From assembly GCA_024762925.1 (NCBI GenBank), contig JANTGM010000031.1, positions 1 to 54,085 on the forward strand: a DNA stretch of 54,085 bases, given 5' to 3'. This DNA is from Kofleriaceae bacterium (lineage in GTDB: Bacteria > Myxococcota_A > Polyangia > Haliangiales > Haliangiaceae). This document shows positions 1-38,288 of the stretch, piece after piece (the first letter of the stretch is position 1; the number at the start of each line of letters is the position of its first letter). The notes beneath the pieces were generated by a model. That model searched no databases, was not told the origin of the DNA, and saw nothing but the letters and a program-made list of their open reading frames with translations. The position numbers and the translations under genes are program-made.

Positions 1-63
1 CCCCCCCGCGGAAGGCTCTGTCCCCCCCGCGGAAGGCTCTGTTTCCCCCGCGGAAGGCTCTGC
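1..63 (-). repeat. 21-bp tandem repeat inside rbfA
   Basis: Three consecutive 21-bp units (1-21, 22-42, 43-63) share the core CCCCCGCGGAAGGCTCTG on the plus strand. The third unit differs only at its first two bases and its last. Because 21 is a multiple of three, the repeat stays in frame with rbfA and encodes a heptapeptide (Glu-Pro-Ser-Ala-Gly-Gly/Glu-Thr) on the minus strand. The first copy touches the window edge, so more copies may lie outside. Confidence 0.9.
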
Positions 64-438: not shown

Positions 439-456
439 CGTCAGCTTGCCCTGTGC

Positions 457-19405: not shown

Positions 19406-20473
19406 CTACGCACCTCCTGGGGCAAGGGCATCGGCTTCAGGTGCAACGAGCATTGCATCGCCATAGCTATAGAAGCGATACCCCGTTTCCACCGCATGGG
19501 CATAGGCCGTCATTACGCGCTCGTACCCGGCAAAGGCGCTCACGAGCATGAGCAAGGTGGATTTCGGCAAGTGGAAATTCGTGAGAAGCGTATCCACAAC
19601 CTGAAACTTGTAGCCGGGCGAGATAAAGATGGACGTGCGCCCTGCCCCCACAGTCACAGCCTTGCGGGCCGTTGCAGCGCTTTCGAGGGCGCGCACTACC
19701 GTTGTGCCCACGGCAACAATGGGCCGCCCACTGGCGACAAGCGCCGCGCACTCCGGTGTGATGTTGTAGCGCTCTTCGTGCAATGCGATGTCGTCGAGTG
19801 ATTCCGCGCGAACGGGGGCAAAGGTCCCAAGTCCAACGTGCAGGGTAATGCTTGTGCGGGTGATGCCACGGTCGTCGAGTGCCTTAAGAACTCGCTCGCT
19901 AAAGTGCAACCCCGCGGTGGGCGCGGCAACGGCGCCCTGCTCTGCCGCAAAGAGCGTCTGATAGCGTGCCCGATCGTCTTCGGTGTCACCCTGCGTGCGT
20001 TCGATATAGGGCGGCAGTGGCAACTCCCCGTGTTCCTCGAGAATTGCGAAGACTTCTGAGGGGAACTCGACAAGGATGCTGCCATCGGCCCAGCGCCCTC
20101 CCAGCGCCTTACACGCAATTGTGGTGCCCACGATACTGAGAACGCAGCCATCGCGAATAGGCTTGGAGGCTTTCGCAAGGCAGCGCCACACCAGCGGGTC
20201 TTGGCTTCCACCTGTGAAGGGTTCGAGCAGCAAGAGTTCCACGGCACCTCCGCTGAGCTTCTTAGTCCGCAGGCGCGCGCGAATCACCTTTGTATCGTTG
20301 ACGACCAAGACAGCGTCCCTTGGCAGAAGCTCGACAATATCGGCAAAGCTATGATCCGCGAGACTGCCATCCGCTCCGAGACAGAGAAGGCGCGAGGCAT
20401 CTCGCCGTTGGGCGGGAGTTTGCGCAATGGCCCCTGCAGGAAGCTCGAAGTCGTAGTCAGAGGTACGGCGCAT
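19406..20473 (-). CDS. queA: S-adenosylmethionine:tRNA ribosyltransferase-isomerase (QueA)
   Basis: QueA converts preQ1 in tRNA to epoxyqueuosine with SAM as ribosyl donor. The 355-residue protein begins MRRTSDYDFELPAGAIAQTP, the family N-terminus. It contains VLVVNDTKVIRARL, VAAPTAGLHFSERVL, GLGTFAPVRAESLDDI and the late FISPGYKFQVVDTLLTNFHLPKS region (shortened here). It lies immediately before tgt on the minus strand and starts only 46 bp from the divergent HEAT-repeat gene, so the two promoters share a very short region. The rest of the queuosine pathway is not in the window. Confidence 0.97.
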   Translation of the reverse strand: MRRTSDYDFELPAGAIAQTPAQRRDASRLLCLGADGSLADHSFADIVELLPRDAVLVVNDTKVIRARLRTKKLSGGAVELLLLEPFTGGSQDPLVWRCLAKASKPIRDGCVLSIVGTTIACKALGGRWADGSILVEFPSEVFAILEEHGELPLPPYIERTQGDTEDDRARYQTLFAAEQGAVAAPTAGLHFSERVLKALDDRGITRTSITLHVGLGTFAPVRAESLDDIALHEERYNITPECAALVASGRPIVAVGTTVVRALESAATARKAVTVGAGRTSIFISPGYKFQVVDTLLTNFHLPKSTLLMLVSAFAGYERVMTAYAHAVETGYRFYSYGDAMLVAPEADALAPGGA

Positions 20474-20519
20474 GAGGCGGCACTATGCCCGTAAGGCCAT
20501 GCGGGGTAAAGTGCCGGCC

Positions 20520-23123
20520 ATGTATCGCTCACTACTTTGGCGCGCTGCTGTCGTCCTCGCCCTGTCCACCGTGGCGGTCAACCAGGCCTCGGCGCAACGC
20601 CGCACCGCGGCTGTCGTCAAAAACGCTGACGTCAATGGCGACGCGAGGCCCGACGAAGTTCGCATTGATGAAGATGGCAGCATCACGGTGCACGTGACGG
20701 GCGATGAGGCGGCGGGCGCTTGGACACCACTGGCGGCGAGCGGCAAGGTGATTGGAGGCAGCATCGCTATTGACAGAAAGCTCGACAAGGGCCGCACAAT
20801 CATCCTGGCGACCTCGAAGCTGGGCCGAAGGGGCGGACACAGCTTCACCGAGGCTGTCGCTCTCGCTTGGAGCCCCGGACGCCTTGAGACCTTGTGGAGA
20901 GGCAAGCTCGGCTCGCAGGGAGCGGATGGCGCGAGCAGCCTCAGCATCGAGCTCGGTCGCTATGGGCTCATCAAGTACGTTAATCGCTTGGGCGTCTCGC
21001 GCTGCGATGGAGAAGCCGCTCACCTCGACGCCGAGCGCTACGATTTCAAGAGCGGTCGTTTTCGGCCCGCACGGCAGGCGCTCCGAATGGCCGCAGCAGA
21101 CTCGCGCCCCCCACTTGTCGCGAGCCGCAATCGGCCAGAGTTTATTCCTGCAAATGCCTCGGCGTTTTGGTTTCGCGCGGCAGGAGCCTCATCCTCGATC
21201 ACGGCACAGTCCGCAGCAGAGTTGGTTGCGCCCATTGCGGTTGCGGATGGCAACGATGCCACGGCTTGGGTCGAGAACAAAGGAGGGCCAGGCACCGGAG
21301 AGTTTGTTACATTGCGCAGCAGTGTTGGCGAAGCGCAGATACGCGCCCTTCGATTTGCCCTTGGCCACGGCACTTCCCCCAAAGACTATGGCCGCCCAAA
21401 GCGTCTCGGAATTATTCTTAGCCCCACCGAGAAATACTGGGTAGAGATCCCGAAGGACCCGCGCAAAGCGCAGTGGGTCGTTCTTCCCAAGCCCACCCCC
21501 AGCAGCTGCCTAACGGTTGTTCTCGATTCGGTCTACCCCCGTCGTGCATTGCCGCAGACCGCAATCTCGGAGATCACGATTTTCAGCACCGAAGAGCTGG
21601 ATCCAACACAGGCTGCGCCTCGACTCGCCGAGCGAATTGCCAAGGGCAAGGCGGGCGCAGATACCCAGCGTTTGCTCTCGAGACTGGGCCCCACCGCCAG
21701 CGACGCACTCGTTGCTGCGATTGCCAACTCCAAGCAGGCGTCTCGTGCTACCGCTTCAAACGAGGTCCGAAATCTGCGCCTCGCTTTGGCGAGCATTCCC
21801 GCTGCACCTGTGGAGTTGGTCGCCGGCCTCAGCGATGACACACTCAGCCCCCGCGATCACAGCACCTTCTCCAGTGCCCTGTGGGACATCGGAGCCAATG
21901 CCATCGCGCCTCTAACAGCAGTGCTCCTCGGGCAGACTCTCAGTGGAAGCGCTACAGCACGGGTTGCTCGTGTACTCGCAAAACTACCACAGCCCGCTGC
22001 AGGGCAAGCTCTTCTCAGCGCATTGGGGAGCGGGAACAATTCGGCTCGCGCGGGGTTGGTGCGAGCGATGGCACAACGCGAGGACGCCTGGCAGCAGCTT
22101 CCTGCTGCGCTAGCCCCCTCCACCCCCGCCACAACCCAAGCCGACCTCTTTCGAGCAATGGGGCTAGCGGCCGAACGTCATGCAGTGGGGTCTGCAGAAC
22201 GCATTGCACTCGGCGAAGCAATTGCCAGAGCGGCAAGCCAACCCAGTCTCGGTTACGAGGAGCACTACCGCGCGCTGCAAGCTGCTGGACAAATTCGAGG
22301 AGACGCCGCGACTCGCGCTCTCCTGCTCAACGTTTCGACTCTCTCAAGCCGTGAGGATGCAGAAGGCCTCGCGCTCTTGCGGCGTGCCATTACCTCGCTA
22401 GGTCGAACAACCGAGGAGACGCTTCCACCGCAACTTGCTGAAGAAACCACCAAGGCGATTCGCGTGGCCCTTACTCACAAGGATCCAGGCGTACGCTTGG
22501 CCCTGCTGGCTTCCACAAGTCCTGCACTTGCGCCGACAGCGGTCGAGGCGCGCCTTCGCGAGGACACCTGGCCCGAAGTCCGACGTGCGGCGGCAGCAGC
22601 CTTGTCAACGCGCTGCGAAGAGAGCGGAGACGCATTACGCACGGCAGCGCTGAAAGACCGCAATGCCAAGGTAGCAGGCAGCGCCTTTGCGGGTCTCTTG
22701 CGATGCGAGAACTCCAACAATTTTGCTCTGGCGCTACAGGTGATGGACGACAAAACGCGCCCCCTCCAATTGCGGCTTGGCGCTGCAAGAGCGCTCGGAG
22801 GATTGGCGAGCGCCTCCCTGGGCGATGTGGTCATTGCGCGTTTTTCCAAAGCGCGGAAGAAGGCATTGTCCAGTCGCACGAGTGGCAAGATTGCCTCGGC
22901 ACTCTCGCGCGCGCTTGCGGACCTAGGCTCGCCGAAAGCCATCCGGGCTCTTGAGAGCAGTGCTGCCGACCCCGCGTTTCCTCAGCTGCAAACAGCAGCC
23001 ATCACAGCGCTGGGCGAGCTGTGTCCAGCAAGCTCACTTCAGCTTCTGCAGCGCCTTCGCAGGAGTCACGAGCACAGCGTCTCATCGGCAGCCACCATGG
23101 CCGTCCGCCAGTGCAGGCGATAG
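20520..23123 (+). CDS. Secreted HEAT-repeat protein with NADase-translocation-like domain
   Basis: An 867-residue exported protein. Started at ATG 20520 it has a signal peptide (MYRSLLWRAAVVLALSTVAV..., cleavage near ASAQ); an upstream GTG/ATG reading adds only basic residues. Residues about 30-185 form a beta-rich domain with DVNGDARPDEVRIDEDG, like FG-GAP/EF-type Asp loops. Residues about 225-350 contain ADGNDATAWVENKGGPGTGE, the pattern of the F5/8-type C domain found with NAD-glycohydrolase translocation modules, a carbohydrate- or surface-binding fold. From about 360 to the end come Ala/Leu-rich HEAT-like helical repeats (for example AARALGGLASASLGDVVIAR). No catalytic domain was seen. 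It converges with the giant TPR gene, 36 bp apart. A role in envelope binding is inference. Confidence 0.8.
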   Translation: MYRSLLWRAAVVLALSTVAVNQASAQRRTAAVVKNADVNGDARPDEVRIDEDGSITVHVTGDEAAGAWTPLAASGKVIGGSIAIDRKLDKGRTIILATSKLGRRGGHSFTEAVALAWSPGRLETLWRGKLGSQGADGASSLSIELGRYGLIKYVNRLGVSRCDGEAAHLDAERYDFKSGRFRPARQALRMAAADSRPPLVASRNRPEFIPANASAFWFRAAGASSSITAQSAAELVAPIAVADGNDATAWVENKGGPGTGEFVTLRSSVGEAQIRALRFALGHGTSPKDYGRPKRLGIILSPTEKYWVEIPKDPRKAQWVVLPKPTPSSCLTVVLDSVYPRRALPQTAISEITIFSTEELDPTQAAPRLAERIAKGKAGADTQRLLSRLGPTASDALVAAIANSKQASRATASNEVRNLRLALASIPAAPVELVAGLSDDTLSPRDHSTFSSALWDIGANAIAPLTAVLLGQTLSGSATARVARVLAKLPQPAAGQALLSALGSGNNSARAGLVRAMAQREDAWQQLPAALAPSTPATTQADLFRAMGLAAERHAVGSAERIALGEAIARAASQPSLGYEEHYRALQAAGQIRGDAATRALLLNVSTLSSREDAEGLALLRRAITSLGRTTEETLPPQLAEETTKAIRVALTHKDPGVRLALLASTSPALAPTAVEARLREDTWPEVRRAAAAALSTRCEESGDALRTAALKDRNAKVAGSAFAGLLRCENSNNFALALQVMDDKTRPLQLRLGAARALGGLASASLGDVVIARFSKARKKALSSRTSGKIASALSRALADLGSPKAIRALESSAADPAFPQLQTAAITALGELCPASSLQLLQRLRRSHEHSVSSAATMAVRQCRR

Positions 23124-23159: not shown

Positions 23160-26100
23160 CTACCCCAGAGCTGCCAACGCTTCCTTGGCGCCGACGTGCG
23201 CGGAGTCAGCACTCAGTGCGCGCTTGAACATATCCTTCGCCTTTGGGCCTTCACCTTGCGCCTGATGAATCTGCCCGAGTTTGAAGTAGACATCCGCCTT
23301 CGTGATTCCAATCGCTGGATCGATGTTCTGAAGCACCATCGATCGGTAGACCCGCCGCGCCTTTTCCCAATCTTGCTTCGCCATGTAGAGCTCGCCAAGC
23401 CCCACCATGGTTCGAACATTCGTAGGGTCGATTCGGAAGGCTTCCTCGTATGCGGTCGTGGCCTTTTCGGCATCCCCCTGTGCGCGGAATATGCCTGCTA
23501 GCCGCTGCTTAAATTGGGCTACCACTTTCATGTTTCGCTTTGCCTTTGCAGCCTCTGCGAGTTGTTCGTACATCGGGGCAGCCTCGTCATGGCGCCCTGC
23601 CTGGAAGTACAAATCGGCAAGAGGCCCTAGGATGCGCGGATTGCCTGGCGTCCCTTGATTCGCCGCCTCGAGGAGAGGAATCACGTGAGCTGGCTGGCCG
23701 AGACGCTCTCCGTAGAGTTCCGCCAATTCGACAGTGAGATCGAGTTTCTCCGCTGGGTCTTGGCAAATTTCGTAGCGTCGGCGAACCATGTCTGCGACCA
23801 GAATCCAATCGTCCTTGTCACGAGCCGCTTCTTCAATCCGCTCGAGTGCGATGGGATGGTAGCCATCAAAGTGCAACGCTTGCCCAAAGTACTCTTGGGC
23901 CTTGGCTTCATCGCCATCCTTGTTCCGCGCAACTTCGCCGAGTCGCACGTAGAGGTCGGCCGCATCCCTTCCTTGAGGCCCAAGAGCAACCGCCCTCTCC
24001 AAGATCTCACTACAGCGTTCCCAATCACTGGCCGACTCATAAATCTTCGCAAGCCGAGTAAGGGCCGCCACGGAGTTTGGATCTCGTACGAGAATCTTCT
24101 CCAGAATCTCAGCCGCTTCGTCTGGGTTGTCCAACTGCCCCTCCCAGATCTCTGCCGCCTGGGCGAGCCATCGCAGTTCGCCCGCATCGTCGCCCTGTAC
24201 TGCGCAGATTTCAGCACGCACCTGATGCAGCTCAACCACATCATGCCAGCGCTCAAGGCTGCGCAAGAGCCGCTCGAGTTGCGCGTTGGCGTCCTCGTGA
24301 GCGCTGTCGATTTCAAGCACGCTACGCATGAAGTCCACTGCCTCTTCAGGAGACTCGCGATCGATCTCCGCAAGTTGCGAAAGTCGCATATACACCCCAA
24401 TGCGCGCCTCATCGCCGTCTACAGCCTCGGCGCGACGAAGGAGAATCTCCTGAACGGCCATGAAGTCCTCGCGTTGTCTGTGAAGCGATTCGAGGGCGTC
24501 AAGCGGCTCCAGGGCATTCGGATCGAGATCGAGTACTGCCTGCCAGGCATCCACCCCTTGCTCCAAATCCCCGAGCTGTTCGACATAGGTCTGAGCAACT
24601 TCGGTGCGAAGAGCCCGGTCAGCTTCCGAATCGGTAGCGTACCGTGATGAGAGCTTTAGCATCTCAATCAGGTCATCCCAGGCGCCCTGCCCGCGATATA
24701 GAATTGCGAGCTCCCGCTGGGCTTCGGCATCGGCCTCATCCAAATCGAGCACTGCTCTCCACGCAGCGATGCACTCCTCTCGCATCTCTAGCTGAAGTCG
24801 CAAGTGTGCCACTTCAACGAGCATCTCGCGCTTTTTCGCCGGATCGTAAGTGAGCTCGGAGCGGTGCCACTGCGTCTGGGCAAGACGTGCCCAATCCCCC
24901 TGTTGCCGACAAATCTGCTGAAGGGCATCAAGCGCTCCCGCATCGTCTGCATCAAGTTTGAGCAGGCTCTCAACATTCACCAGGGCACCCGCATGATCGC
25001 CAAGCTTGTCGATCTTGATGCGTGCACTGCGAGTCCCCAGACGTGCTTGCACATCCGGGTTGTTGCTTCCCGCACAAATGCCATCGAGACGCGCCGCCAC
25101 TTCGCCATAGCGCTGCACCTCTTCACCAAGGCGCTCAAGCTCATCTAGCGCTTGCTCGCTCTCCGGCTCTTCTGCCAGCCAGCCACCAACGGCGTCGAGC
25201 GCTCGGGTTGCATCTCCGAGTTCTTGTTCGGCAATCTCGGCGATGCGCGCATAGATTTGGGCGCGCTCAAACGAGTCGTTCACGCTTCCAATCTTGGTGC
25301 TCAAGAGGTCGGCCAGACGGGCCGAATCTCCATCCTGCTCATACAGAGGTTCGAGGATCGCGATAATTGCTCCACGCTCTTGCTCACTTGTCGCAAGCAG
25401 CCGCTCCAGGGCGCCTCTTGATGCCCCATGATTCGCATCGCGCTCTAGGACATCTCGATAGGAGGCGACCGCATCTGCTACTTGGCCCAGTCGTTGTTCG
25501 CGCACGTCGCCGAGCATGAACAGCAGATTGGCCTGCTCAGTTTCATCCATGGTTGCGTCTGCTCTGCGCGCGTATGTCTCGGCCAATTCGGCATATTGTC
25601 CGTTGCGCTCGTAGATTCGCGAAAGAGCCAGCAGCGTGGGTCCTTCGTCGTCCGCAACTGCGAGTGCTCGAGAGTAGCGCTCTGCCGCTCGATTCAAATC
25701 TCCTAGGCTTTCTTCGTAGAACCTTCCAAGCTTCGAAGCACAGAGGAATTCCACGTTCGAGTCGACAGTCTCGCCAAGAATGCCTTCATAGAGGCTCACG
25801 AGTTCTTGCCAATTGCCCATCGACATCGAGAGGCGCTCAAGTTGCGACTGGACTGCTTCGTTCTCAACTTGCACCACAAGCGCTCGCGACCAAGTCGCAA
25901 AGGCGCTCGCGGTGTCGCCACGAGACATCTCGTGGAGTTCTGCGAGTTCGCCCAGAAGAGCGCCTTCGCGGTCCTCGTCACCATGGGCCGCTCCGATACG
26001 AGTTTCGATGACCTGTGCAAGTGCATCGAAGTTGGCTTCCGCTCGGAACACACCCTCAAGTACCTCGCAGCAGCGTTCCATCGTATCCTCATTCTCGCTG

Positions 26101-29100
26101 TGCCGAAGAAGGGCCGCACGGGCACCTTCATGCGCAGGAGCAAGTTCCAGAACCCCTGCATAGCGCTCAATGGCGCTCTCGAGTTCCATTAGACGCATCT
26201 CGACAAGTTCGGCGGCGGCAAAGGCACCTTGCACCTTGCTATCTCCTGAGGCCAACGTGACCTGCTGGTCGATAACCTCAAGCAAGTCTTGCCACATCGA
26301 CTCCTTCTCAAAGAGCGTGCGCAACCCTTCCAGAGCGCGCGAATCATCGGGATCCAAATCAAGCACGGCGCGCATCTGCGCAATCGCCTCATACACATCG
26401 CCAAGTTTGTTCTCTTGAAGTGATGCGAGCTCAAAGTGCAGCAGACGCCGAGCCGCTGGGTCCTCGTTCGACTCGATCTTCGACAGCAAAACCTGCGCCA
26501 GCTCTGCCCAATTCTCCTCCGCCGTGAAGAGGCGTTCGAGGGCGTCAAGCGCGTCGACATCACCCTCCTCCGCATTCAGAACATTTCGGTAGGCATCGAT
26601 TGCCGCCCCGCGGTCCGAGCGTTCGTTCTCGTGTGTCATTGCGACTCTGCGCAGCAAAGCCACCCGCGCTTCCGCGTCCTCGGCCAGCTCAGCACGGCGC
26701 TCCAAAATCGGAATGAGAGCGTCCCAGTCACGAGTCGTTGCAAGGAGCCTGTCGAGTTCTGAGAGTGCGACCGCATGATCATCTGTGACTTCGAGAAGCC
26801 TTCGGAGACATGCAATGGCCTCCGCTGAGTCGTTCCTGGAAGTCTCATGGATTCCGGCAAGCTGCATGAGCACGGTGCCAACCAATTCAAAGTCGTATTG
26901 GTCTTTGATTCCTTTTTCGAGAACTTCGATCAGAAGGTCGGCCTTACCTTGCGAAAGCCCCAGCGAGACAAAGCGCTGATAGAGTTCGAGATCTCCTGTA
27001 TCTTCAAGCCACGCCTTGCCCAGGGCTTCGAGCGCAAGCCCAAGGTCCCCTCCACGCTCTTCATGGATCTGAGCAATCTCGCGCAGCATCTCGCCACGCT
27101 GAGACTGGTCTTCAGCGTACATGAGCTTGGCGTCGAGGATGACAGCGAGTTTCTGCCACCAGTCCTTCTCACGGTACACAGGTTCGAGGATGTCGGCGAT
27201 TTGCTCGCGATGCGCATCATCCATGACCAGGCGTTCCAGCGCCGTGAGCGCGAGTTCTCCGCCGGGCATGTGCAGCGCTTCTTGGTACTGCTCTATGGCA
27301 CCATCCATGTCCTCTAGATGCTGTTCACGAATCTGCGCGAGCCGCAATCGACTCTCAAGCAGCTGTCCTTCGTCCCGCGGGCGGTCGATTTGGCCAAGCA
27401 GTAGGTCCGCAAGCTCGTACCAATTCTGCTGCACCTCGAGCAGCCGGTCCAGCTGCCCCATAGCCCGCTCGTTGTCGGGATCGATCTCAAGCAGCGCACG
27501 CCAAGCATCGGTTGCTTTGCCGTGATCCTCAAGCTGGTCTTCCTGCACGCCTGCGAGTTTTTCGTAGATTTCCTGACGTCGAACATCGTCATACGAAGAG
27601 TGCACGACTTCTTCATAGAGGCCAACCAACTCGTCCCAGGCTTCCGCGCGCACCAGCATCGTCTCTGTTCTCGAAAACACCTGCAGGGCATCTGGATCCA
27701 TTTGCAGGACTCGTTTGTACGCGACCAGCGCCTCATCGACCTTACCCAACCGCTTATTGTAGAGTTCCGCCAGCGTTTCGGTAACCTCGCGCATCTCTGG
27801 CGAGTCACCGCTCTCGTCATCAACGTAGGCCTGATACACCTCAGCGAGGCCTTCCCAGTTGTGGACCACGCTCACGAGGCGTTCAAGCTGCATTCGAACA
27901 CTCTTGTCGCTCGGACACTCGCGAAACACTCGACCAAGCCAGAGGAAGGCTCCATCAAGATCTTCGAGCTGATCCTCGTGCAGGCGCGCGATGTACTTTG
28001 TTAGTCGCAAGCGATCCGCCGGGTCATCTGCTGCTTCTAGTTTAATCTCGTAGATACGAACGAGCTGTGGCCAGTTTTGCTGCGCGATATGAATTGGCTC
28101 GAGAATGTCGGCTACAGCGCTGCGGGTATCCGGCTCTTCGAGCAGTCGCTCCAGCGATGCCAGCGCGGCTTGGTGTGTGGGGTCGCCACCAATGGCGGCT
28201 CCATAGTTCTCCACAGCGGCATCCGGATCGCGAAGCTGCTCTTCGTAGAGAACTCCCAGCCGACATCGCAAGTCGACAGCCTCTTCCACGGTCATTGCAT
28301 ACCCGAGGCGCGACTCAAGCGCTTCCGCCAAGTCGTGCCAGCGCTCGGTCTTGCGATAGAGATTCTGCAACATCGTTGCGACCTCGCGCGACTCTGGCAT
28401 GAGCTCGAGCACTTGTTCCCAGTGCATCGCCGCATCGCTTGCTCGATCGAGCTTGTCTTCACAGAGACTTCCTGCCTCCGTGAGCGCAGCTGCGCGCGCC
28501 TCAATGTCGTGGGCCGCAAGTTCCGCCTTCTGCACCAAGAGATCATAGAGAGCCACGTAATCTTCACGATCACGATAGATTCCTTCGAGCGCGCGCAGGG
28601 CGCGATCGTCATCTGGCTGACCATCGAGAACAAGCTGGTAGTACTCGCGGGCGGTGTCTTCGTCCTTAAGAACCGCGCGACTGAGATCCGCGATGTCGAG
28701 ATGCAAACGGCGCTGCAAATCTCCGTCGAAGACATCGGGCGCAATGTCTCGATACACAGTGACAAGCGTGGGAAGTGCGTCATTCTCCGCAGCAAGGCGT
28801 TGCAGGTCTGAGAGCAGCTCAGGCAGTTCTGGCTCCGCGAGAGACGAACGCACAGCGCGCTTGAGCACATCAAACGCCGCGCCTGAGTCTTGCAGCGCAA
28901 TCTCTTGAATGTTCGCGATACGCCGAAGATTGGTCATCACCGAGCGCGGGTCATCATTGTCTTCACTCAGACTCTCGAGGAGAGAAATGAGAGCCGCATG
29001 CTCACCGCCCGCCTCGTAGATCGGCTCCAGTAGTTCCGCAGCGCGGTATCGCAAGTCTGGGTCTGAGACAAAGCCCCGCAATCGATCGCGAGCGCCCTGA

Positions 29101-32100
29101 TGGTCCACATCGAGACGCAGGACGTCAGCGAAATGCTCCACCGCCTCGCTTGGTCGCGATAGGTCATCGGCCAACACCACACCTGCCTCAAAGAGCAGCG
29201 AGGCTCGTTCGCTACCCTCGCTGTTTTGCACGCGTCGCTGCAAAACATCCAAGAGATCGTCAAATCGCGTCTCACTTCGATACAGAGAGGAGAGTGAGTT
29301 CAACACATCGCTGTGGTCAACATCAAGGTCGAGAACTTCGAGATAGCTCGCGATTCCCTCGTTGGGTTCCCCGAGCTTCTCAACATATAGCTCTGCGAGC
29401 CGGCACAGGGCAGAGGCTCGCAGAGGGCCAAGCTCCATCAAGTCTACTCTGCGTCGAACAATGTCAGCGAGGTCACGATACTGAGCGCTCGCTTCGAGCA
29501 ATCGCTCGGCTGCAAGAAGCGCCGCCGTATCTTCAGGGTCCTCTGCCAGCACAGCTTGCCACGCAACAAGAGCCGCATCCGCGTCCTCAAGTGCAACTTC
29601 TTCAATTTCGGCGACCCTCGTTAGCAGCGTCTTGCGCTCCTCCGTGGACTCAGCCCAGTCGGCGGCGGAGCGCAGAACAGCAGCCTGCTTCCCAAACTCA
29701 GAAGAACTCGCATAGAGCACATCGAGCCGTGACGATGCGTATCGAATCATCTCGGGATCAGAGGTGTCGAGTGCCAGAATTCGTTCCAAGAGAGCAATCG
29801 TCTCGGTTGGCTGTACGAGGATGTCGTGACGAATGTCGGCACAACTGCGCAGCAACCGTGCCTGTGTGTTGAGGTCGCCCTGATCCACACCATCGATGGC
29901 AGCCTCCAGCCCAGCGGCCAAATCTGCCCAGCCATCAACGACCGGAGCGAGCCGCAGCAATGCAGCGAGGCTCCGCTCGTCGCTGGGATCCCTGGAGAGG
30001 GCTAACAGCCAGCTCTCCATCGCCGCCTGCGGATTGCCAAGAGCCTCGTCCTGAATCTCTGCAATGCGAGCGTAGAGCTCGACCGCCTCTGGATCGCTCT
30101 CTGCGCACTCTGCCTGTACCGTAAGCATGCGGCACAACGAAGCACTGTCGACAGCGGCTTCGTAAATTGGCTCCAGAAGTCGCGCAATTCGGAGACGCAG
30201 TTCCTCATTCTCGAGAAGGCTCTCGCAGACCGCTCGCGCCTCTTCATCTTCGTTGTTGCGAGCGAGTACTTCTTCCGCCAAATCAACGGCGCCATGGCTG
30301 CGACCGAGCTTCTCGGCTCGCAAACGCGCACGGCGGCAATCGTTGGCTGAAAGCGCTGCGCCATCGAGGTAATCGGACCAGTGCCCTAAGAGTTCTTCCA
30401 ACTCTTCCCAACGCTCACTGCGCTCGTAGATTCCTCCTAGAGCCGAGAATGCACGGGACTGTTCTGGGTCCGACTCAATGATGCCTTTGAAGGCAGCCTC
30501 AGCACTTGCCGAGTCATCGAGGACGCCCTCGGAGAGTTCAGCCAGTTGCCAGTAGAGTCGTACACGCTCCGCAACGTCGAAGCTGCGCTCCACCTGCCCC
30601 TCAAGCAAAGACTTGAGCTCCTCCCATTTCTCGTTTGTGCGAAAGATTCGAGAAAGGGCCTGGTGCGCGTCGGGGTTTCCCTCATCAAGGCTCTGAACCC
30701 GTCGCCAGGCCTCCTCGGCCGCTTCCGCGTCATCCAAGATTTCGTCGCAGAGGATCGCCAGCTCCAAAGCGATGCCGAGTTTGACAGCTTCGTCGCATCC
30801 TCGTTCATCACAGACTCCAAAGGCTGCGACGAGCTTCGATCGCAAGTCACCAACGCGATCGAGGAGCTTTCCGAGCATGTCAAGACGCATACGGTTGCCC
30901 GCATCTGCCGGGTCAAGCATGAGGAGTCGGGCCGAAGCAGCATACGCGCGTTCCGGGTCGTTGAGCTCGCCGTCGTAAAGACCTGCAAGGCGCGCTTCGT
31001 AGCCAAGCCTCTCCTCGCCTTCGGCTCCCTGCACCAGCACTTCGATTGCCTGCGCAATCTTGGCGTGGGCCGCTGCTTGTTCGAATGCAGGCAGTAGCAG
31101 TTGTGCGATCTCAGCACGTACTTCAGGCAGCTGCCCTTCTTCCATAAAAAACTGGAGTGCGTCGTACACCGGCTGTGACGGTGCCAGTTCCATGGAGCGC
31201 TTGAAGGCTTCACGGGCGTCATTCGGGCGATCTAGAGGCCCTTGGTAGAGTTCGCCCAAACGGTAGTACAGCGCAGCTTCCGAATCAGAGTCGCCAGCAA
31301 TGCCAACCTCCACTTCGAGAATGCTTACGAGTTGTTCCCAGTCGCCAAGCCCTTCGAAGATGCGACCCAGTGCGCGTAGCGCACGACGATTTTCCGGTTC
31401 GATCGCAAGAATGGCGCGATAACTGGCCACAGCAGCATTTGTGTCTTCGAGCCGTTCCTCCTCGATGTAGGCCACCTTGAAGAGCAGTTCCGCTTTCTCG
31501 CTCCCCTGCCCCATCGAAACACGCTTGCGCAGGATCTTGAGCAGTGCTGGCCACTCGCTCTGCTGAGTTGCAAGTTCTTCAAGCGCATCCATTGCCTGAC
31601 GGTCCTCAGGGCGAAGCTCCAAGACTCCCTGGAAGTACTCGCGTGACGTATCGGGGTCGTGAAGCCGATGCTCCGCGATCGTACCCAGCTCGCGAAAAAG
31701 CTCGATGCGCTCTTCTTCGCCAACGTCCTCGGCCTGGCTGCGCTCTACGAGAATTTCTGAGACTTCATTCCACGCATCGGCTTCGGCACCCAGTCGTTTG
31801 AGTTCGGAGAGCAGCCCTGAATCGTTGGGCCGCATTTGGTAGGCGCGCCCGGTCCACTGAAAAGCCAGTGATTTGGAACCCAGTTGCTCCTCGCAAAGCT
31901 TGCGAATGTCATCGATGAGTGCGAGAGACTCTTCCTCGGAGGCATGCTCCAAGAGAATCTCGTGAATACTGAGAAGACGAGCCCACTTGCCCGCACCGCG
32001 ATACAACGGCACCAGCGCCTGCGCGGCTCCCAAGTGCTTGGGTTCCACGCTTTGCAGCCGCTCGTACACTCGAGCAACTTTGTCGGGGTTGGGGATGTTC

Positions 32101-34391
32101 TCCTGCGCAACACGACCAGCCCTCTCGAGCAGTGCAACTGTCTCGGCGCGATCTTGGAATTTATCTGAGATCGAAAAATACGCTTCAACCAAGTCGTCCC
32201 AGTGCCCCAGTGCCCCGTAGAGCGCCTCGAGGGCATCGTAGTCCCTTGCAGCAGCGTAGAGCTCGCGCAGAACACGGGCGGCCTTTCCGTGGCTCGGCTT
32301 GATCTCCAGAATCTCCTGATACACCTTTGCCGCCTGTGATGGCGCCTTGAGGCGTTCGGCGTACACCGCGCCCATTTTCTCCAGCACTGGCAGTGCAGCC
32401 TCTGGTGTGACCGCCAAAGCCCGCTTGCGCGCTAGCATTTCCACAAACGCGGGAAAGCGTTTTTCCCGCTCGTAGAGGGCACAGAGGGCATCGTAGGCGG
32501 CCGGCGCATCGGGAGCGATATCGTCCGGATCTGTCGTCGAGCCAGGAAGCTCCAGCACCATATTCCAGATATTGATTGCCAGGCGGCTATCACCAAGCTT
32601 TGTTCCCGCCAACGCTGCCATGTTTGCGTAGTGGGCACGTCGCTCGGTCACATCCAGAGTGAGAGCTTCGCGCCCCAGAAGATCGATCAGGGCCCGCCAC
32701 TGCCGACGGCGCGTGTAGATTTCCTTGAGTTTCGAAAGGGCTTCGGCATGGGTAGCATCCATACCTAAGAGTTCTTCTAACGGCTTGATTGCTTGCGCGT
32801 AGTTGCCAAAGCGATCAATCCAGAGAGCTGCCACTTCGCTGAGCAATGCGGCGCGTGCATCGAGTTCGAGACTTTCAAGATGTGCTTTGCGAGTGAGCAC
32901 CGCAATTAGATCATTCCAGCGGCCCAGTTCTCGGTACTTGGCTGCCAACGCGTCGAGCACCTCGAGATTCGACGGCTCCAGCGTGAGAATGCTGTTGTAG
33001 GTGTTGATGACCATGACGTCGAGGTTGAGACGGTCACGGTAGATCTCCACAACCTCGAGCAGGCCCTGAACGCGCCCTTCTGTATCCTCCGCAGGCAGCT
33101 TCTCGACTTGGTCCTTGATCAGATCGAGCAGCGCGTTCCACTTGCCCGTTCGCTCATAGAGCCGCCGAAGCGACTCGGATGCTTCGATATTTGTCGGATC
33201 GCTGCGAAGAATGCTCTTCCAGCTATCGATTGCCTTCTCAGGGTTGTCCATGCTGCCTTCAGACAGCTGCGCAAGCTCCACCATGAGCTCTTGCCGGCGC
33301 TCGGGATCCGCGTTGCCGACGCTCTTGAGCGCCTGGCGGTACAGCTGCATGAGCTTGCCGGCCTGCTCGGTTTGAACGTAATACTCTTTGTAGAAATCGA
33401 GCTGAATTCGATGCGCCGGAGCGAGTTTGCGAAGGCGCGCAAAGTACTCCTCGGCCGCTTCCATATCCTCGAGTCGCTGCCAGTGCAACATCCCGATTTG
33501 AATCAGCATATCTACTTCGGTCTCGGCGCTCCCAGAACGGCGTTTGTTCTTGAGCGCATTGGCATACAGGGAGACGGCCGCGGGCCAGTTCTCTTGCTCC
33601 TGATATCGGTTTGCCAAAAAGCCAACTGCTCTCGAATTGCTCGGATCATCGGCAATGACCTGTTGCATGGCCGTCGTTGCCAATTCCGCATTGTTGAGCG
33701 GCCCCTGCCCCAGCTCCGCCAATCGAACCCAACAGGCAATACGGATATCGGGCTTGTCAGCAATTTCGACACAGCTTTGCAGGTGCTCCTGCAATTCATC
33801 CCAGCGTTTGGCGTCGCCAAGCAAGCGCGCGAGCTGCAGGGCTGCACGGTTGTTCTTGGCGTCGACCTCAAGTGCTTTGCGCAAGTAGGTCTCAACTTCG
33901 CTGGCACCTGGACTGTACCGAGCATAGGTCTCAGCAGCGGCGCGGTAGAGGGTTGTGGCAAGCTTGGGCTCGGTTGTGGCCTCCGCCTCTTCGATGTACT
34001 TGTCTACGATTTGTTCCCAGTGGACCTGAATCAGCTCAAGGTGCGTGAGAAGCTCTTTCACCTCCGTGTTGTCGGGTTGGAGTTGCAGCGCTTCATTCAT
34101 GCACTGCAAGCTCGTATCGGCGTTGAGCAGGTCCTCGAAAACAACCTGCCCCTTGCCCACGAGTAGCGCTGCCTGTCGCTCGCCTCCTGCGTGCGCAAGC
34201 TCAAGATCAAAGAGCTTCACCGCCGTGTCCGAAGCGCCCTTGCCGCGCAACTGTTGGCGCGCTTCATCGAATGCAATCGCGGCTTCCGGGGTGCCCAAGA
34301 CCTGCGGCCCTAGTTTCTGCAACTCCGCAAGCGCTTGTGAGTCGCTGGGATCGCTGCGGAGCATGACAAGGTACTCTCTAAACTCGGCCAT
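23160..34391 (-). CDS. Giant tetratricopeptide-repeat protein (3,743 aa)
   Basis: One uninterrupted frame. Started at ATG 34391 (MAEFREYLVMLRSDPSDSQA) it lacks a signal peptide and membrane helices, so it should be cytosolic; the further-upstream reading from 34481 is unlikely. Almost the whole chain is TPR-like helices in a larger unit of about 70-75 residues, roughly of the form LE-D---A---Y--VL-LDP----AL--LERL----W--L--IL. By estimate there are close to 50 such units. The last about 180 residues are more canonical TPRs (KATTAYEEAFRIDPTNVRTM, KAKDMFKRALSADSAHVGAK). The composition is strongly acidic. TPR arrays are protein-binding scaffolds, and no catalytic domain is visible. Very large TPR proteins are known in Myxococcota-like genomes without established function. 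It is divergent from the ABC exporter genes. Confidence 0.9.
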   Translation of the reverse strand: MAEFREYLVMLRSDPSDSQALAELQKLGPQVLGTPEAAIAFDEARQQLRGKGASDTAVKLFDLELAHAGGERQAALLVGKGQVVFEDLLNADTSLQCMNEALQLQPDNTEVKELLTHLELIQVHWEQIVDKYIEEAEATTEPKLATTLYRAAAETYARYSPGASEVETYLRKALEVDAKNNRAALQLARLLGDAKRWDELQEHLQSCVEIADKPDIRIACWVRLAELGQGPLNNAELATTAMQQVIADDPSNSRAVGFLANRYQEQENWPAAVSLYANALKNKRRSGSAETEVDMLIQIGMLHWQRLEDMEAAEEYFARLRKLAPAHRIQLDFYKEYYVQTEQAGKLMQLYRQALKSVGNADPERRQELMVELAQLSEGSMDNPEKAIDSWKSILRSDPTNIEASESLRRLYERTGKWNALLDLIKDQVEKLPAEDTEGRVQGLLEVVEIYRDRLNLDVMVINTYNSILTLEPSNLEVLDALAAKYRELGRWNDLIAVLTRKAHLESLELDARAALLSEVAALWIDRFGNYAQAIKPLEELLGMDATHAEALSKLKEIYTRRRQWRALIDLLGREALTLDVTERRAHYANMAALAGTKLGDSRLAINIWNMVLELPGSTTDPDDIAPDAPAAYDALCALYEREKRFPAFVEMLARKRALAVTPEAALPVLEKMGAVYAERLKAPSQAAKVYQEILEIKPSHGKAARVLRELYAAARDYDALEALYGALGHWDDLVEAYFSISDKFQDRAETVALLERAGRVAQENIPNPDKVARVYERLQSVEPKHLGAAQALVPLYRGAGKWARLLSIHEILLEHASEEESLALIDDIRKLCEEQLGSKSLAFQWTGRAYQMRPNDSGLLSELKRLGAEADAWNEVSEILVERSQAEDVGEEERIELFRELGTIAEHRLHDPDTSREYFQGVLELRPEDRQAMDALEELATQQSEWPALLKILRKRVSMGQGSEKAELLFKVAYIEEERLEDTNAAVASYRAILAIEPENRRALRALGRIFEGLGDWEQLVSILEVEVGIAGDSDSEAALYYRLGELYQGPLDRPNDAREAFKRSMELAPSQPVYDALQFFMEEGQLPEVRAEIAQLLLPAFEQAAAHAKIAQAIEVLVQGAEGEERLGYEARLAGLYDGELNDPERAYAASARLLMLDPADAGNRMRLDMLGKLLDRVGDLRSKLVAAFGVCDERGCDEAVKLGIALELAILCDEILDDAEAAEEAWRRVQSLDEGNPDAHQALSRIFRTNEKWEELKSLLEGQVERSFDVAERVRLYWQLAELSEGVLDDSASAEAAFKGIIESDPEQSRAFSALGGIYERSERWEELEELLGHWSDYLDGAALSANDCRRARLRAEKLGRSHGAVDLAEEVLARNNEDEEARAVCESLLENEELRLRIARLLEPIYEAAVDSASLCRMLTVQAECAESDPEAVELYARIAEIQDEALGNPQAAMESWLLALSRDPSDERSLAALLRLAPVVDGWADLAAGLEAAIDGVDQGDLNTQARLLRSCADIRHDILVQPTETIALLERILALDTSDPEMIRYASSRLDVLYASSSEFGKQAAVLRSAADWAESTEERKTLLTRVAEIEEVALEDADAALVAWQAVLAEDPEDTAALLAAERLLEASAQYRDLADIVRRRVDLMELGPLRASALCRLAELYVEKLGEPNEGIASYLEVLDLDVDHSDVLNSLSSLYRSETRFDDLLDVLQRRVQNSEGSERASLLFEAGVVLADDLSRPSEAVEHFADVLRLDVDHQGARDRLRGFVSDPDLRYRAAELLEPIYEAGGEHAALISLLESLSEDNDDPRSVMTNLRRIANIQEIALQDSGAAFDVLKRAVRSSLAEPELPELLSDLQRLAAENDALPTLVTVYRDIAPDVFDGDLQRRLHLDIADLSRAVLKDEDTAREYYQLVLDGQPDDDRALRALEGIYRDREDYVALYDLLVQKAELAAHDIEARAAALTEAGSLCEDKLDRASDAAMHWEQVLELMPESREVATMLQNLYRKTERWHDLAEALESRLGYAMTVEEAVDLRCRLGVLYEEQLRDPDAAVENYGAAIGGDPTHQAALASLERLLEEPDTRSAVADILEPIHIAQQNWPQLVRIYEIKLEAADDPADRLRLTKYIARLHEDQLEDLDGAFLWLGRVFRECPSDKSVRMQLERLVSVVHNWEGLAEVYQAYVDDESGDSPEMREVTETLAELYNKRLGKVDEALVAYKRVLQMDPDALQVFSRTETMLVRAEAWDELVGLYEEVVHSSYDDVRRQEIYEKLAGVQEDQLEDHGKATDAWRALLEIDPDNERAMGQLDRLLEVQQNWYELADLLLGQIDRPRDEGQLLESRLRLAQIREQHLEDMDGAIEQYQEALHMPGGELALTALERLVMDDAHREQIADILEPVYREKDWWQKLAVILDAKLMYAEDQSQRGEMLREIAQIHEERGGDLGLALEALGKAWLEDTGDLELYQRFVSLGLSQGKADLLIEVLEKGIKDQYDFELVGTVLMQLAGIHETSRNDSAEAIACLRRLLEVTDDHAVALSELDRLLATTRDWDALIPILERRAELAEDAEARVALLRRVAMTHENERSDRGAAIDAYRNVLNAEEGDVDALDALERLFTAEENWAELAQVLLSKIESNEDPAARRLLHFELASLQENKLGDVYEAIAQMRAVLDLDPDDSRALEGLRTLFEKESMWQDLLEVIDQQVTLASGDSKVQGAFAAAELVEMRLMELESAIERYAGVLELAPAHEGARAALLRHSENEDTMERCCEVLEGVFRAEANFDALAQVIETRIGAAHGDEDREGALLGELAELHEMSRGDTASAFATWSRALVVQVENEAVQSQLERLSMSMGNWQELVSLYEGILGETVDSNVEFLCASKLGRFYEESLGDLNRAAERYSRALAVADDEGPTLLALSRIYERNGQYAELAETYARRADATMDETEQANLLFMLGDVREQRLGQVADAVASYRDVLERDANHGASRGALERLLATSEQERGAIIAILEPLYEQDGDSARLADLLSTKIGSVNDSFERAQIYARIAEIAEQELGDATRALDAVGGWLAEEPESEQALDELERLGEEVQRYGEVAARLDGICAGSNNPDVQARLGTRSARIKIDKLGDHAGALVNVESLLKLDADDAGALDALQQICRQQGDWARLAQTQWHRSELTYDPAKKREMLVEVAHLRLQLEMREECIAAWRAVLDLDEADAEAQRELAILYRGQGAWDDLIEMLKLSSRYATDSEADRALRTEVAQTYVEQLGDLEQGVDAWQAVLDLDPNALEPLDALESLHRQREDFMAVQEILLRRAEAVDGDEARIGVYMRLSQLAEIDRESPEEAVDFMRSVLEIDSAHEDANAQLERLLRSLERWHDVVELHQVRAEICAVQGDDAGELRWLAQAAEIWEGQLDNPDEAAEILEKILVRDPNSVAALTRLAKIYESASDWERCSEILERAVALGPQGRDAADLYVRLGEVARNKDGDEAKAQEYFGQALHFDGYHPIALERIEEAARDKDDWILVADMVRRRYEICQDPAEKLDLTVELAELYGERLGQPAHVIPLLEAANQGTPGNPRILGPLADLYFQAGRHDEAAPMYEQLAEAAKAKRNMKVVAQFKQRLAGIFRAQGDAEKATTAYEEAFRIDPTNVRTMVGLGELYMAKQDWEKARRVYRSMVLQNIDPAIGITKADVYFKLGQIHQAQGEGPKAKDMFKRALSADSAHVGAKEALAALG

Positions 34392-34588
34392 TTCTCGCCA
34401 AATGTATCGCGCCACGCGGCAGCCAGACAACGGCCAGCCATTCGAGAATCGTTGGTCTGTGAATGCGACATGTGCGCACAACTCTCCACCGCCAGGTGAG
34501 CGACGTTTCTAGGGCCGCGATCCGTGCATGGGGCTACGGAGAGCGCTACCGTTGGGCCTGGTAGTTGCGGGTGAGTTCTGAAGGCAAT
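34392..34588. other. Divergent promoter region of the TPR and ABC exporter genes
   Basis: 197 bp separate the probable starts of the giant TPR gene (minus) and the first exporter gene (plus). Both promoters must be here, but I see no convincing -35/-10 pair and no inverted repeat long enough to propose an operator. Confidence 0.4.
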
Positions 34589-36373
34589 GTGGGGCGTATC
34601 AACGCCGGCGAACTGGCAAACGAAGGCCCTTGGTCCCTGCTGCGCGTGTATCGTCGCGAGGTCCTCGCAGCGTGTTTCATGCTCTTGTGCACGGCGGGTC
34701 TCACACTCTCGCTCCCAACCGTGCTTGGCAAGACCGTGGAGGCACTCATCGGCCCCGATCCCGCTGGAGACGTTCCCACTCTTGCCATTTGGATGATCGG
34801 GATTGCGATTGTCGGGGCGTGCACCCGCATCGCATCTCGGGTCTGGCTCTTCAATGCAGCGCGAAACGCTGAATACGACTTGCGCTCAATTGTGTTCCGC
34901 CATCTGCTGACGCTGGACTCCAACTTCTATCGAGAACACTCCACAGGCGATGTGATGTCGCGACTCACCAACGACGTGCAAACCGTTCGTGCGCTTTGGG
35001 GACCGGGGCTTCTAAATATTGTAAACACGAGCTTTCTGGTCACTGTGGCACTTGTGCTGATGTTGCGCGTGGATCCTGTGCTCACCGCGTGGGCGCTGTT
35101 GCCCTACCCAAGCATGGTTCTTCTTGGCATGGGCTTTGGCCGACGTATCTACAAGAGCAGCCGAGCCGTACAAGCCCAACTCGGCACGCTCTCGTCATCC
35201 ATTCAAGAAGACCTGACCGGCATCGCGATCATCAAGTCGTACAACCTCGAAGAGAATCGGGCTCGCAACTTCGAGGCCTCTTCGACCTTGCTTCTCGACC
35301 ACAACATGGCGCTCACAAAGGTGCGTGGCCAGCTTGTGCCAACGCTAGGTGCGGTCGCCGCGCTCGGAACCGTCGTCATGCTCTTCATTGGAGGACGTCG
35401 GGTCATCGAAGGCCACATTACTCTGGGGCAGCTCATCGAGTTCAACGCCTACCTGGCTGCACTCGTCTGGCCAACGCTGGCGATGGGGTGGATGATTTCA
35501 CTCTTACAGCGGGGACGAGCGTCGTGGGAACGGCTGGCTGTGGTGCTCTCGACTGTGCCGAAAATTACCGACGGTGATGGCCCAGCGCTCGATCCCGACA
35601 CAACGCGTGGTGATGTGGAGATTCGGAACCTGCATCTGAGCCTGGGGGAAACCGAAGTGCTCAGCGGTGTGAGTCTGCGTCTCGAGCCTGGCACCACAAC
35701 AGCCATTGTGGGCCGAACCGGTTCCGGAAAAAGCTCGCTAATCTCTACTCTGCCGAGGCTCAACGAAGTCGCCGACGGTAGCGTCTTTCTCGACGGACGC
35801 GACATTAACTCGCTGCCACTAGAGAGTCTGCGATCCTTGATAGGCTTTGCTCCGCAGGAAGCGTTCCTCTTCTCCACATCCATTGGTGACAACATCCGCT
35901 TTGGGGTCGACCGTAGGCCGCTGCCTCCGAAAGATGAAGAAGGCTACACTACTGCGATCGAGGAGGCTGCCAAGTACGCCGGGCTCACTCGCGACCTCGC
36001 CGCCCTTCCCGACGGCCTCGACACGGTGGTTGGCGAGCGAGGAATCACGCTCTCGGGCGGACAGCGCCAGCGTGTTGCCCTTGCTCGCGCACTCGCTACC
36101 CAGCCCAAAGTGCTGGTGCTCGATGATTCCCTATCTTCGGTAGATGCAGAGACAGAGCGAGAAATTCTTAGTCACCTCGGTGAGCTAATGAAGGATCGCA
36201 CGTCGATCATTCTCTCGCATCGGCTGGCAGCAGTGCGACGAGCAGACCAAATCGCCGTTCTTGAGGACGGCAAGCTCGTGGAGCTTGGACAGCATGACGA
36301 GTTGCTCAAGCGCGGTGGTGTGTACGCCGAGATTTACGATACCCAGGTAAAAGAAGGAGTGCTCCTTGACTGA
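34589..36373 (+). CDS. ABC exporter half-transporter with degenerate ATP site
   Basis: A 594-residue type IV (B-type) exporter subunit with six membrane helices (about residues 25-300) fused to an ATPase domain. Walker A GRTGSGKSS is at about 375, the Q-loop is PQEAFLF, the signature is the canonical LSGGQRQR at about 488, and the H-loop is LSHRLA. Walker B reads VLVLDDSLSSVD, with Asp where the catalytic Glu is expected. That is the hallmark of the degenerate-site subunit in heterodimeric exporters (LmrC, BmrC and TM287 type). The start is ambiguous: GTG 34589 has AAGG four bases upstream; TTG 34565 and GTG 34571 are in frame. It overlaps the partner gene by 8 bp. Substrates could be lipids, drugs or peptides. 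Confidence 0.92.
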   Translation: MGRINAGELANEGPWSLLRVYRREVLAACFMLLCTAGLTLSLPTVLGKTVEALIGPDPAGDVPTLAIWMIGIAIVGACTRIASRVWLFNAARNAEYDLRSIVFRHLLTLDSNFYREHSTGDVMSRLTNDVQTVRALWGPGLLNIVNTSFLVTVALVLMLRVDPVLTAWALLPYPSMVLLGMGFGRRIYKSSRAVQAQLGTLSSSIQEDLTGIAIIKSYNLEENRARNFEASSTLLLDHNMALTKVRGQLVPTLGAVAALGTVVMLFIGGRRVIEGHITLGQLIEFNAYLAALVWPTLAMGWMISLLQRGRASWERLAVVLSTVPKITDGDGPALDPDTTRGDVEIRNLHLSLGETEVLSGVSLRLEPGTTTAIVGRTGSGKSSLISTLPRLNEVADGSVFLDGRDINSLPLESLRSLIGFAPQEAFLFSTSIGDNIRFGVDRRPLPPKDEEGYTTAIEEAAKYAGLTRDLAALPDGLDTVVGERGITLSGGQRQRVALARALATQPKVLVLDDSLSSVDAETEREILSHLGELMKDRTSIILSHRLAAVRRADQIAVLEDGKLVELGQHDELLKRGGVYAEIYDTQVKEGVLLD

Positions 36374-38168
36374 GCCCGCGCCAGCAACGCCAAAATCCGC
36401 TCACAAGAGTGAAGAGGTGCTGGGCAAGGCCTACGACAGTCGCCTGATGCTTCGGCTGTGGCGGTATGTGAGGCCGCACTGGGCGTTGCTCGCGCTCGCA
36501 CTATTTCTCATTCCCGTCACGGTCGCCTTCGAGATTGCTCAGCCCTACCTGCTGAGCTTGGCCATCGATGTCTACATCGCTCATCACATTCCCGAGGGTC
36601 TGGGCAGTCTCGCGCTGCTCTTTGTGAGCTTCGTTCTGTTGCAGGCAATCTGCGCCTACGCCCAGCTCTACGCACTGCAACTGGCAGGTCAGCGATCGAT
36701 GCACAGCCTGCGAATGGCAACCTATCGACACATCCTCACGCGTCGGCTGGCATTCTTCGATCGCGTTCCTGTCGGTCGATTGCTCACCCGCATGACCAAC
36801 GATATCGAGAGCATCAACGAAATGTTCTCAAGCGGCGTGGTGACCCTAATCGCAGATGCAATTCGCCTACTTGCGATCGTGGCCATGATGTTCTACTTGA
36901 ACGTCAAACTCACGCTCATCACCTTTGTAACCCTGCCCGCACTGATCGTCCTGGTTGGCTATTCTCGCAACCTCATGCGCGCCTCGTATCGACAGATTCG
37001 GGTCAAATTGGCAGCGATGAACAGCCATGTGCAAGAGCATCTGAGCGGCATAAAAGTCGTGCAGCTCTTCTGCCGCGAACGCGCCACCGCTGAGACCTAC
37101 GAACGCATCAACAAGGAGTATCGCGAGGCCTACACCGGTTCCATTCGAGCCGACGCCAGCATGTACGCCATCGTCGAGGCAATCGGAATTTGCTCTGCAG
37201 CTGCGATTGCTTGGCACTCGGGCAGCGCTATCGGCGAAGGCGGGGTCACTGTTGGCCTGGTTGTCGCCTTCATCGAGTACGTCAATAAGTTCTTCATTCC
37301 AATAAAGGACTTCAGCGCGAAGTATGCAGTGATGCAGTCCGCCATGGCTGCCGCGGAACGCATCGTAAGCCTTCTGGACACCGAGGAAGAAGACGCCCCT
37401 GTCGCTCCGACCGAGGGCGATGAGGTCACAACGGATGCACAGGCCATCTCGTTCTCGGATGTTACGTTTAGCTATCGAATTGGTGAGCAGGTGCTCAAGG
37501 GCCTTTCCCTCGACGTGGCCCCCGGCCAAAAGGTCGCCGTTGTGGGGTCGACAGGTTCGGGCAAATCGACCTTGATCAAACTACTGGCGAGACTCTACGA
37601 GCCTGATGGTGGCAGCATCGCGCTCGCGGGGAGAGACATTCGCAGCATTCCCGCTGCGGAAATTCGTCAGCGCATTACCGTGGTCAATCAGGACGTCTTC
37701 CTCTTTGCCGGCAGCATCCGCGACAATGTGCGACTGGGGCATCATGAGGCCTCTGATGCTGATATCGATCAAGCGCTGGCGCAAATTGGAGCAGACCAGG
37801 TCGTGCGAGCGCTTGCCGATGGTGCAGATGCGCACGTTGCGGATCGCGGCGAGAACCTCTCCGCCGGTGAGCGACAGCTCATCTCCTTTGCGCGCGCGCT
37901 GGTTCGAGATCCGGAGATACTGATACTCGATGAGGCCACGGCCCACGTCGATCCCAAGACCGAATCGGTTATTGAAGCGGGTCTCGACACACTCATGGCG
38001 GGCCGCACAACCCTGGTCATCGCCCACAGGCTCTCCACAATCCGCAACGCCGACAAGATCATTGTTTTGGCCCACGGCGTGGTTGAAGAAGAGGGTAGCT
38101 ACGAAGAACTCTTGGCGAGAGGCGGCGTCTTCGCTAAATTGGAGAAGAGCTTCTCTCGAGACCACTAG
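36366..38168 (+). CDS. ABC exporter half-transporter, catalytic partner
   Basis: A 600-residue six-helix plus ATPase exporter subunit. Walker A is GSTGSGKST (about residue 394), the Q-loop VVNQDVFLF, Walker B ILILDEATAHVD with the catalytic Glu, and the H-loop IAHRLSTI. Its signature is LSAGERQL, a departure from LSGGQ. It therefore complements the upstream subunit: its Walker motifs with the partner's LSGGQ make the active ATP site, while its LSAGE with the partner's Asp-type Walker B makes the inactive one. The start is TTG 36366, supported by AAGGAG a few bases upstream and an 8-bp overlap with the previous stop, so the pair is translationally coupled. An inner-membrane heterodimer is expected. 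Confidence 0.93.
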   Translation: MTEPAPATPKSAHKSEEVLGKAYDSRLMLRLWRYVRPHWALLALALFLIPVTVAFEIAQPYLLSLAIDVYIAHHIPEGLGSLALLFVSFVLLQAICAYAQLYALQLAGQRSMHSLRMATYRHILTRRLAFFDRVPVGRLLTRMTNDIESINEMFSSGVVTLIADAIRLLAIVAMMFYLNVKLTLITFVTLPALIVLVGYSRNLMRASYRQIRVKLAAMNSHVQEHLSGIKVVQLFCRERATAETYERINKEYREAYTGSIRADASMYAIVEAIGICSAAAIAWHSGSAIGEGGVTVGLVVAFIEYVNKFFIPIKDFSAKYAVMQSAMAAAERIVSLLDTEEEDAPVAPTEGDEVTTDAQAISFSDVTFSYRIGEQVLKGLSLDVAPGQKVAVVGSTGSGKSTLIKLLARLYEPDGGSIALAGRDIRSIPAAEIRQRITVVNQDVFLFAGSIRDNVRLGHHEASDADIDQALAQIGADQVVRALADGADAHVADRGENLSAGERQLISFARALVRDPEILILDEATAHVDPKTESVIEAGLDTLMAGRTTLVIAHRLSTIRNADKIIVLAHGVVEEEGSYEELLARGGVFAKLEKSFSRDH

Positions 38169-38200: not shown

Positions 38201-38287
38201 ATGAGTGAAACGCAGATCAAGTCGCCAATGCAATGTCGGTTCAGGCCCGCGACTCGCTGCGCTATTTCGCCGCGTTTGGGCTTCTAG
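38201..38287 (+). CDS. Possible 28-residue leader ORF before the hybrid kinase
   Basis: ATG 38201 is preceded by a perfect AGGAGG (38183-38188), the best ribosome-binding site in this area. It opens a frame (MSETQIKSPMQCRF...) that stops at TAG 38285-38287, one base before the kinase ATG at 38289. This arrangement would couple kinase translation to the short frame. Alternatively the kinase could begin at GTG 38205 in its own frame, or a frame error in the assembly could have split one N-terminus. No homologue is recognised, so this is tentative. Confidence 0.35.
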   Translation: MSETQIKSPMQCRFRPATRCAISPRLGF

Positions 38288-38288
38288 G

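Follow-up and report, generated by a model that had tools for sequence, protein, structure and literature searches.

What does a bacterium gain from a cytosolic protein of about 3,740 residues composed of little but TPRs? The question is raised by tprX, the giant gene in the window (the whole 54,085-nucleotide stretch of Kofleriaceae DNA that was analysed; Table 1). Our preferred reading, to which we give a probability of about 0.55, is that TprX belongs to the GltI family and acts as a giant cytosolic scaffold, most likely for an envelope or motility machine separate from Agl/Glt. GltI has been described as a large scaffold by which, together with GltG, Agl motors are linked to MreB tracks (PMC13104615). 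The first-pass annotation proposed a cytosolic solenoid whose repeat unit is two TPRs, which our analysis bears out, and a scaffold role in the envelope or motility, which we consider most likely on the grounds of homology to GltI. Its statement that the function is unknown was too pessimistic because the closest relative of TprX in the same genome is the GltI of the glt gliding cluster.

The giant frame is real. On the minus strand it is open across 3,773 codons, from a TTG at 34481 to 23160, and the ATG at 34391 that yields the 3,743-residue protein is supported as the start because TprX orthologues, which are found at full length across Myxococcota, begin at the same residue. Comparison with two fragments, 72% and 68% identical to tprX, gave differences of 0.22/0.14/0.54 and 0.24/0.19/0.58, respectively, at codon positions 1/2/3. 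Divergence at position 3 is two to four times that at position 2, and the substitution pattern points to a gene under purifying selection.

The product is highly acidic (net charge approximately -313). Its highest 19-residue hydropathy is only 1.38, so the scan of the whole protein gives no indication of a signal peptide or membrane helix, and its Pfam matches are TPR models, overlapped by a few models for other helical repeats, in agreement with the earlier view that TprX lacks an export signal or enzyme domain. An NCBIfam score above the cut-off for MamA is a sum across many TPRs, and this identity was rejected. The phage (PHROGs) and defence (PADLOC) libraries gave no relevant match to TprX. 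Pfam, AlphaFold and PDB matches agree on the hallmark of a TPR solenoid, an all-helical protein of tandem helix-turn-helix repeats of approximately 34 residues.

Table 1. Features of tprX and its surroundings, in window coordinates (res, TprX residues).
Feature	Position	Strand	Remarks
TprX gene	23160..34391	-	3,743 residues; ~50 two-TPR units; TPR solenoid; stop codon included
TprX head, res 371-900	31692..33281	-	region most alike in TprX and GltI; conserved
Head motifs KWNALLDLIK ... IYRDRLNLDVMVINTYNSIL ... GRWNDLI	within 31692..33281	-	
13-unit core copy A, ~res 1042-2042	28266..31268	-	self lag 13 (z 4.1); TprX-GltI lag -1 (z 8.4)
13-unit core copy B, ~res 2043-3036	25284..28265	-	tandem duplicate of A; TprX-GltI lag -14 (z 6.5)
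C-terminal tail, ~res 3037-3743	23163..25283	-	ends in conserved YRSMVLQN.D..IGITKADVY..LGQIH motif
Extra-helix marker 1, res 1099, LLPAF	31083..31097	-	five-helix unit in model
Extra-helix marker 2, res 1406, LEPIY	30162..30176	-	
Extra-helix marker 3, res 1788, LEPIY	29016..29030	-	
Extra-helix marker 4, res 2097, LEPIH	28089..28103	-	
Extra-helix marker 5, res 2402, LEPVY	27174..27188	-	
Extra-helix marker 6, res 2778, LEGVF	26046..26060	-	five-helix unit in model
Extra-helix marker 7, res 3013, LEPLY	25341..25355	-	five-helix unit in model
TprX-ABC1 intergenic region	34392..34564	.	173 bp, divergent; sigma-70 consensus not found
ABC1, exporter half-transporter	34565..36373	+	LSGGQ canonical; Walker B degenerate (LDD)
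ABC2, partner half-transporter	36366..38168	+	LDE canonical; signature degenerate (LSAGE); 8-base overlap with ABC1
Convergent neighbour	20472..23123	+	predicted exported (N-terminus hydrophobic, by eye); NADase-type glycan-binding domain and HEAT repeats

The solenoid is built from units of two TPRs. Compared with itself residue by residue, TprX shows score peaks of -0.28 at a lag of 72 and -0.47 at a lag of 144, whereas shuffled sequences average -0.81 (standard deviation 0.04), confirming the period of about 72 residues. A repeat HMM found 51 units between residues 11 and 3742, mostly 71-76 residues apart. Since this HMM was built from TprX itself, shuffled copies serve as its control, and 20 of them gave 0-3 hits each. 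AlphaFold2 models of the two ends, based on 39 and 40 orthologues, are all helical (residues 1-1120, mean pLDDT 88.6, pTM 0.43; residues 2640-3743, mean pLDDT 89.8, pTM 0.40) and place four helices, or two TPRs, in each unit. The earlier estimate of some 50 two-TPR units holds. Local structure is reliable in both models, whereas the low pTM values leave the overall rod shape and global curvature unfixed.

Superimposed on this regular pattern are seven units with a single additional helix of approximately 17 residues, which we call LEPIYE helices. Three of these units fall within the models, and each shows five helices; a further five-helix unit lies at residue 670. The nearest solved folds in the PDB are long TPR scaffolds, namely IFT139, Ski3, CTR9 and OGT. 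Like TprX, IFT139/TTC21B, Ski3/TTC37 and CTR9, the best Foldseek matches, are long TPR solenoids, and they organise multi-protein complexes; unlike TprX, they are eukaryotic and at most one third of its length. The similarity is local only (TM approximately 0.10-0.18), and we claim no common ancestry: judged from the models, the likeness is one of kind of fold and not of kinship.

Kinship is instead found within the same genome. The best TprX paralogue is a giant TPR frame of 3,927 codons on contig C4, which adjoins genes for a TPR lipoprotein, a GltG relative with an FHA domain (353 bits), a GltE relative, a 1,151-residue GltD-like protein and a GltC relative (322 bits). Together these form a gltC-D-E-G-(TPR lipoprotein)-gltI cluster near rpoD (56-90 kb of C4; L053 and L054), and its occurrence in this non-Myxococcus genome suggests that a Glt-type machine is probably present in the source organism. 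The arrangement recurs in a genome from another class, where the giant TPR protein has 4,148 residues, and GltI-type and GltG matches lie within a few kilobases of each other in several other genomes. L053 also contains an open-ended frame of 994 residues (2-2986, plus strand) with an odd combination of FHA domains, a multi-CXXCH cytochrome-like region, a 4Fe-4S ferredoxin and a thioredoxin-reductase-like region. Further long TPR frames in this genome, more distant from TprX, lie on contigs C128, C2, C69, C42 and C34 (2,816, 2,605, 2,577, 2,107 and 1,995 codons, respectively).

The simplest identification of the window gene would be as this organism's GltI (AgmK). The gltI gene of Myxococcus xanthus shares cluster G1 with gltD-E-G, and its 4,132-residue product has no signal or membrane segment (PMC3169522, Table 1), a description that TprX fits in size, TPR content and the absence of such segments. 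We nevertheless consider this identification highly improbable. A different giant TPR gene fills the glt cluster, here and in other genomes, and the position of the C4 paralogue makes it the GltI of this genome. The tprX gene was not seen inside a glt cluster in any genome examined. In a FastTree phylogeny of 31 giant TPR proteins, TprX falls outside the clade of glt-cluster giants; the two form separate clades with support of 1.0, and bit scores agree. The GltI clade is defined here by glt-cluster position, with the M. xanthus protein (MXAN_4863) lying outside the compared set. The two G063 sequences carry each other's labels in this tree. Polyangia and other classes are represented in both clades; the duplication of a common giant ancestor therefore predates the split of the sampled Myxococcota classes. 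TprX is an ancient, conserved and unstudied sister of GltI and not GltI itself. In the papers searched, we found no second giant TPR protein that had been named in myxobacteria.

The two proteins share an architecture. Both are giants (3.4-4.2 thousand residues) made of two-TPR units without signal peptides or membrane segments, both occur across Myxococcota, and both carry a head and a core of 13 units, approximately 990 residues long, in collinear order. BLAST of TprX against itself gave the identity diagonal only, with no internal duplication visible. When each TprX unit was profiled over orthologues and significance was assessed by permutation, the profiles resembled one another at lags of 4 units (z 4.6) and 13 units (z 4.1). 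Against GltI they aligned in two registers 13 units apart, one pairing TprX residues ~164-1900 with GltI residues 45-1981 (z 8.4) and the other pairing ~1822-3047 with 920-2143 (z 6.5). GltI thus has one copy of the core and TprX has two in tandem. The spacings of the extra-helix markers agree with this doubling: 307, 382, 309, 305, 376 and 235 residues between the seven markers of TprX, compared to 307, 378 and 233 between the four in this genome's GltI. TprX also differs in lacking the C-terminal extension of GltI. The simplest history would be one core in the ancestor, followed by tandem doubling in the TprX lineage. Likeness between the two proteins is highest in the head (z up to 7.5), which suggests that the two heads may bind similar partners.

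These features suggest how a TprX scaffold could work. The solenoid would form a long curved rod whose grooves hold several client proteins at set places, with the head binding a partner of the same kind as that of GltI. The doubled core could supply two binding stretches or a longer reach. Because the seven extra helices break the alternation of helices, we propose that they bend the rod at fixed intervals. Just as GltI serves the Agl/Glt motor, TprX would most likely bring together inner-membrane or cytoskeletal parts of an envelope or motility machine, in an assembly of its own. TPR solenoids have many roles, which counts against this scaffold reading.

The genes around tprX offer a different candidate partner. 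In the window it is flanked by queA, tgt, secDF and recJ, the gene for the HEAT-repeat protein, an ABC pair, a histidine kinase gene and a phosphofructokinase gene. Homologues of the HEAT-repeat protein occupy the same place beside tprX in some relatives only. The kinase gene (38205-41126, plus strand) encodes a PAS-histidine kinase-receiver protein with a weak GGDEF-like end, and a small SET-domain protein gene that adjoins the phosphofructokinase gene (42443-43000, plus strand) is kept in several relatives. The divergent ABC pair noted in the first-pass annotation is present at 34565-38168. As in heterodimeric exporters such as TM287/288, SmdAB/MdlAB and MsbA-like proteins, ABC1 and ABC2 combine one consensus and one degenerate ATP site, although their scores fall below the curated NCBIfam cut-offs.

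TprX might therefore be imagined as a cytosolic scaffold or regulator of this exporter that brings in the substrate or holds the transporter at the membrane. The asymmetric ATP sites are those of heterodimeric exporters, and the pair adjoins tprX in at least 18 of the 67 loci collected as described below and in several further relatives. The pairing is limited to some lineages, however. Many relatives have no ABC pair beside tprX, including all four Polyangium, Minicystis and Polyangiaceae loci, and in L088, where TprX is 49% identical, tprX and the histidine kinase gene stay and only the ABC pair is gone. Moreover, queA-tgt-secD-secF is kept on the other side of tprX in many relatives, suggesting a conserved chromosomal neighbourhood. 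The expected conservation of the TPR/ABC pairing thus held in part of the family and failed elsewhere; the exporter is not an obligate partner of TprX, and we regard a role dedicated to it as quite improbable. Among the loci compared, no neighbour of tprX was universal across lineages.

The distribution of TprX bears on whether it belongs to a motility or envelope machine at all. Strong homologues occur in nearly all of 55 relatives, from genus to class. An alignment-based scan of the collection found 67 TprX loci, every one in a record titled Myxococcota, Myxococcales or a family thereof, Deltaproteobacteria or Proteobacteria; they include Polyangium sp. 6x1 and Minicystis rosea DSM 24000 (L137). 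Of 190 genomes from the phylum, 99 matched the head shared by TprX and GltI (E <= 1e-20), and many of these have two giant frames, each of 3.4-4.2 thousand residues. A GltG-family match was present in all 99 of these, compared to 63 of the 91 others; this co-occurrence follows large clades and may reflect shared ancestry only. A model for GltJ (NF033761), a Myxococcaceae marker, had no match above its cut-off in the 190 genomes. Four genomes from different families (G081, G136, G076 and G059, of f29, f37, f31 and f23, respectively) have a GltG-family match, whereas neither type of giant TPR protein was detectable in them; a Glt core may thus exist without GltI and TprX, or with a much diverged form. 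Apparent loss of TprX with retention of GltI in two genomes (G084 and G130) was ruled out, as both have a diverged TprX-like frame. One 95%-complete genome, G108, keeps TprX and has no GltI frame and only weak relatives of GltG and GltC, indicating that TprX can exist apart from the Glt motor and is not simply part of it.

One interpretation of G108 is that TprX serves as a general TPR platform in the cytosol, for a process outside motility and the Glt system, for example the assembly of signalling or metabolic complexes, with its kinship to GltI limited to architecture and origin. A highly acidic protein with nothing but TPRs and no neighbour conserved across lineages is compatible with such a role. 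The head, as the most GltI-like region, suggests a similar partner and so argues against this interpretation, as does the co-occurrence of TprX or GltI with GltG. We consider a general platform possible but somewhat unlikely, and favour the GltI-family scaffold for a separate envelope or motility machine. A bolder extension of that reading, which we offer tentatively and think rather doubtful, is that Myxococcota have two ancient giant TPR scaffolds, with the doubled-core TprX forming the cytosolic backbone of a second machine, so far undescribed, that is associated with a motor or the envelope and parallels Agl/Glt.

GltI is among the least understood components of the myxobacterial gliding motor. 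The retention across Myxococcota of a full-length ancient paralogue, at a cost of approximately 11 kb of DNA, suggests that giant TPR scaffolds are general in these bacteria and no oddity of gliding. The contrast between single and double cores, together with the common head, provides testable ideas on how binding partners are distributed over the parts of GltI. TprX also gives the search for another large myxobacterial assembly a concrete target.
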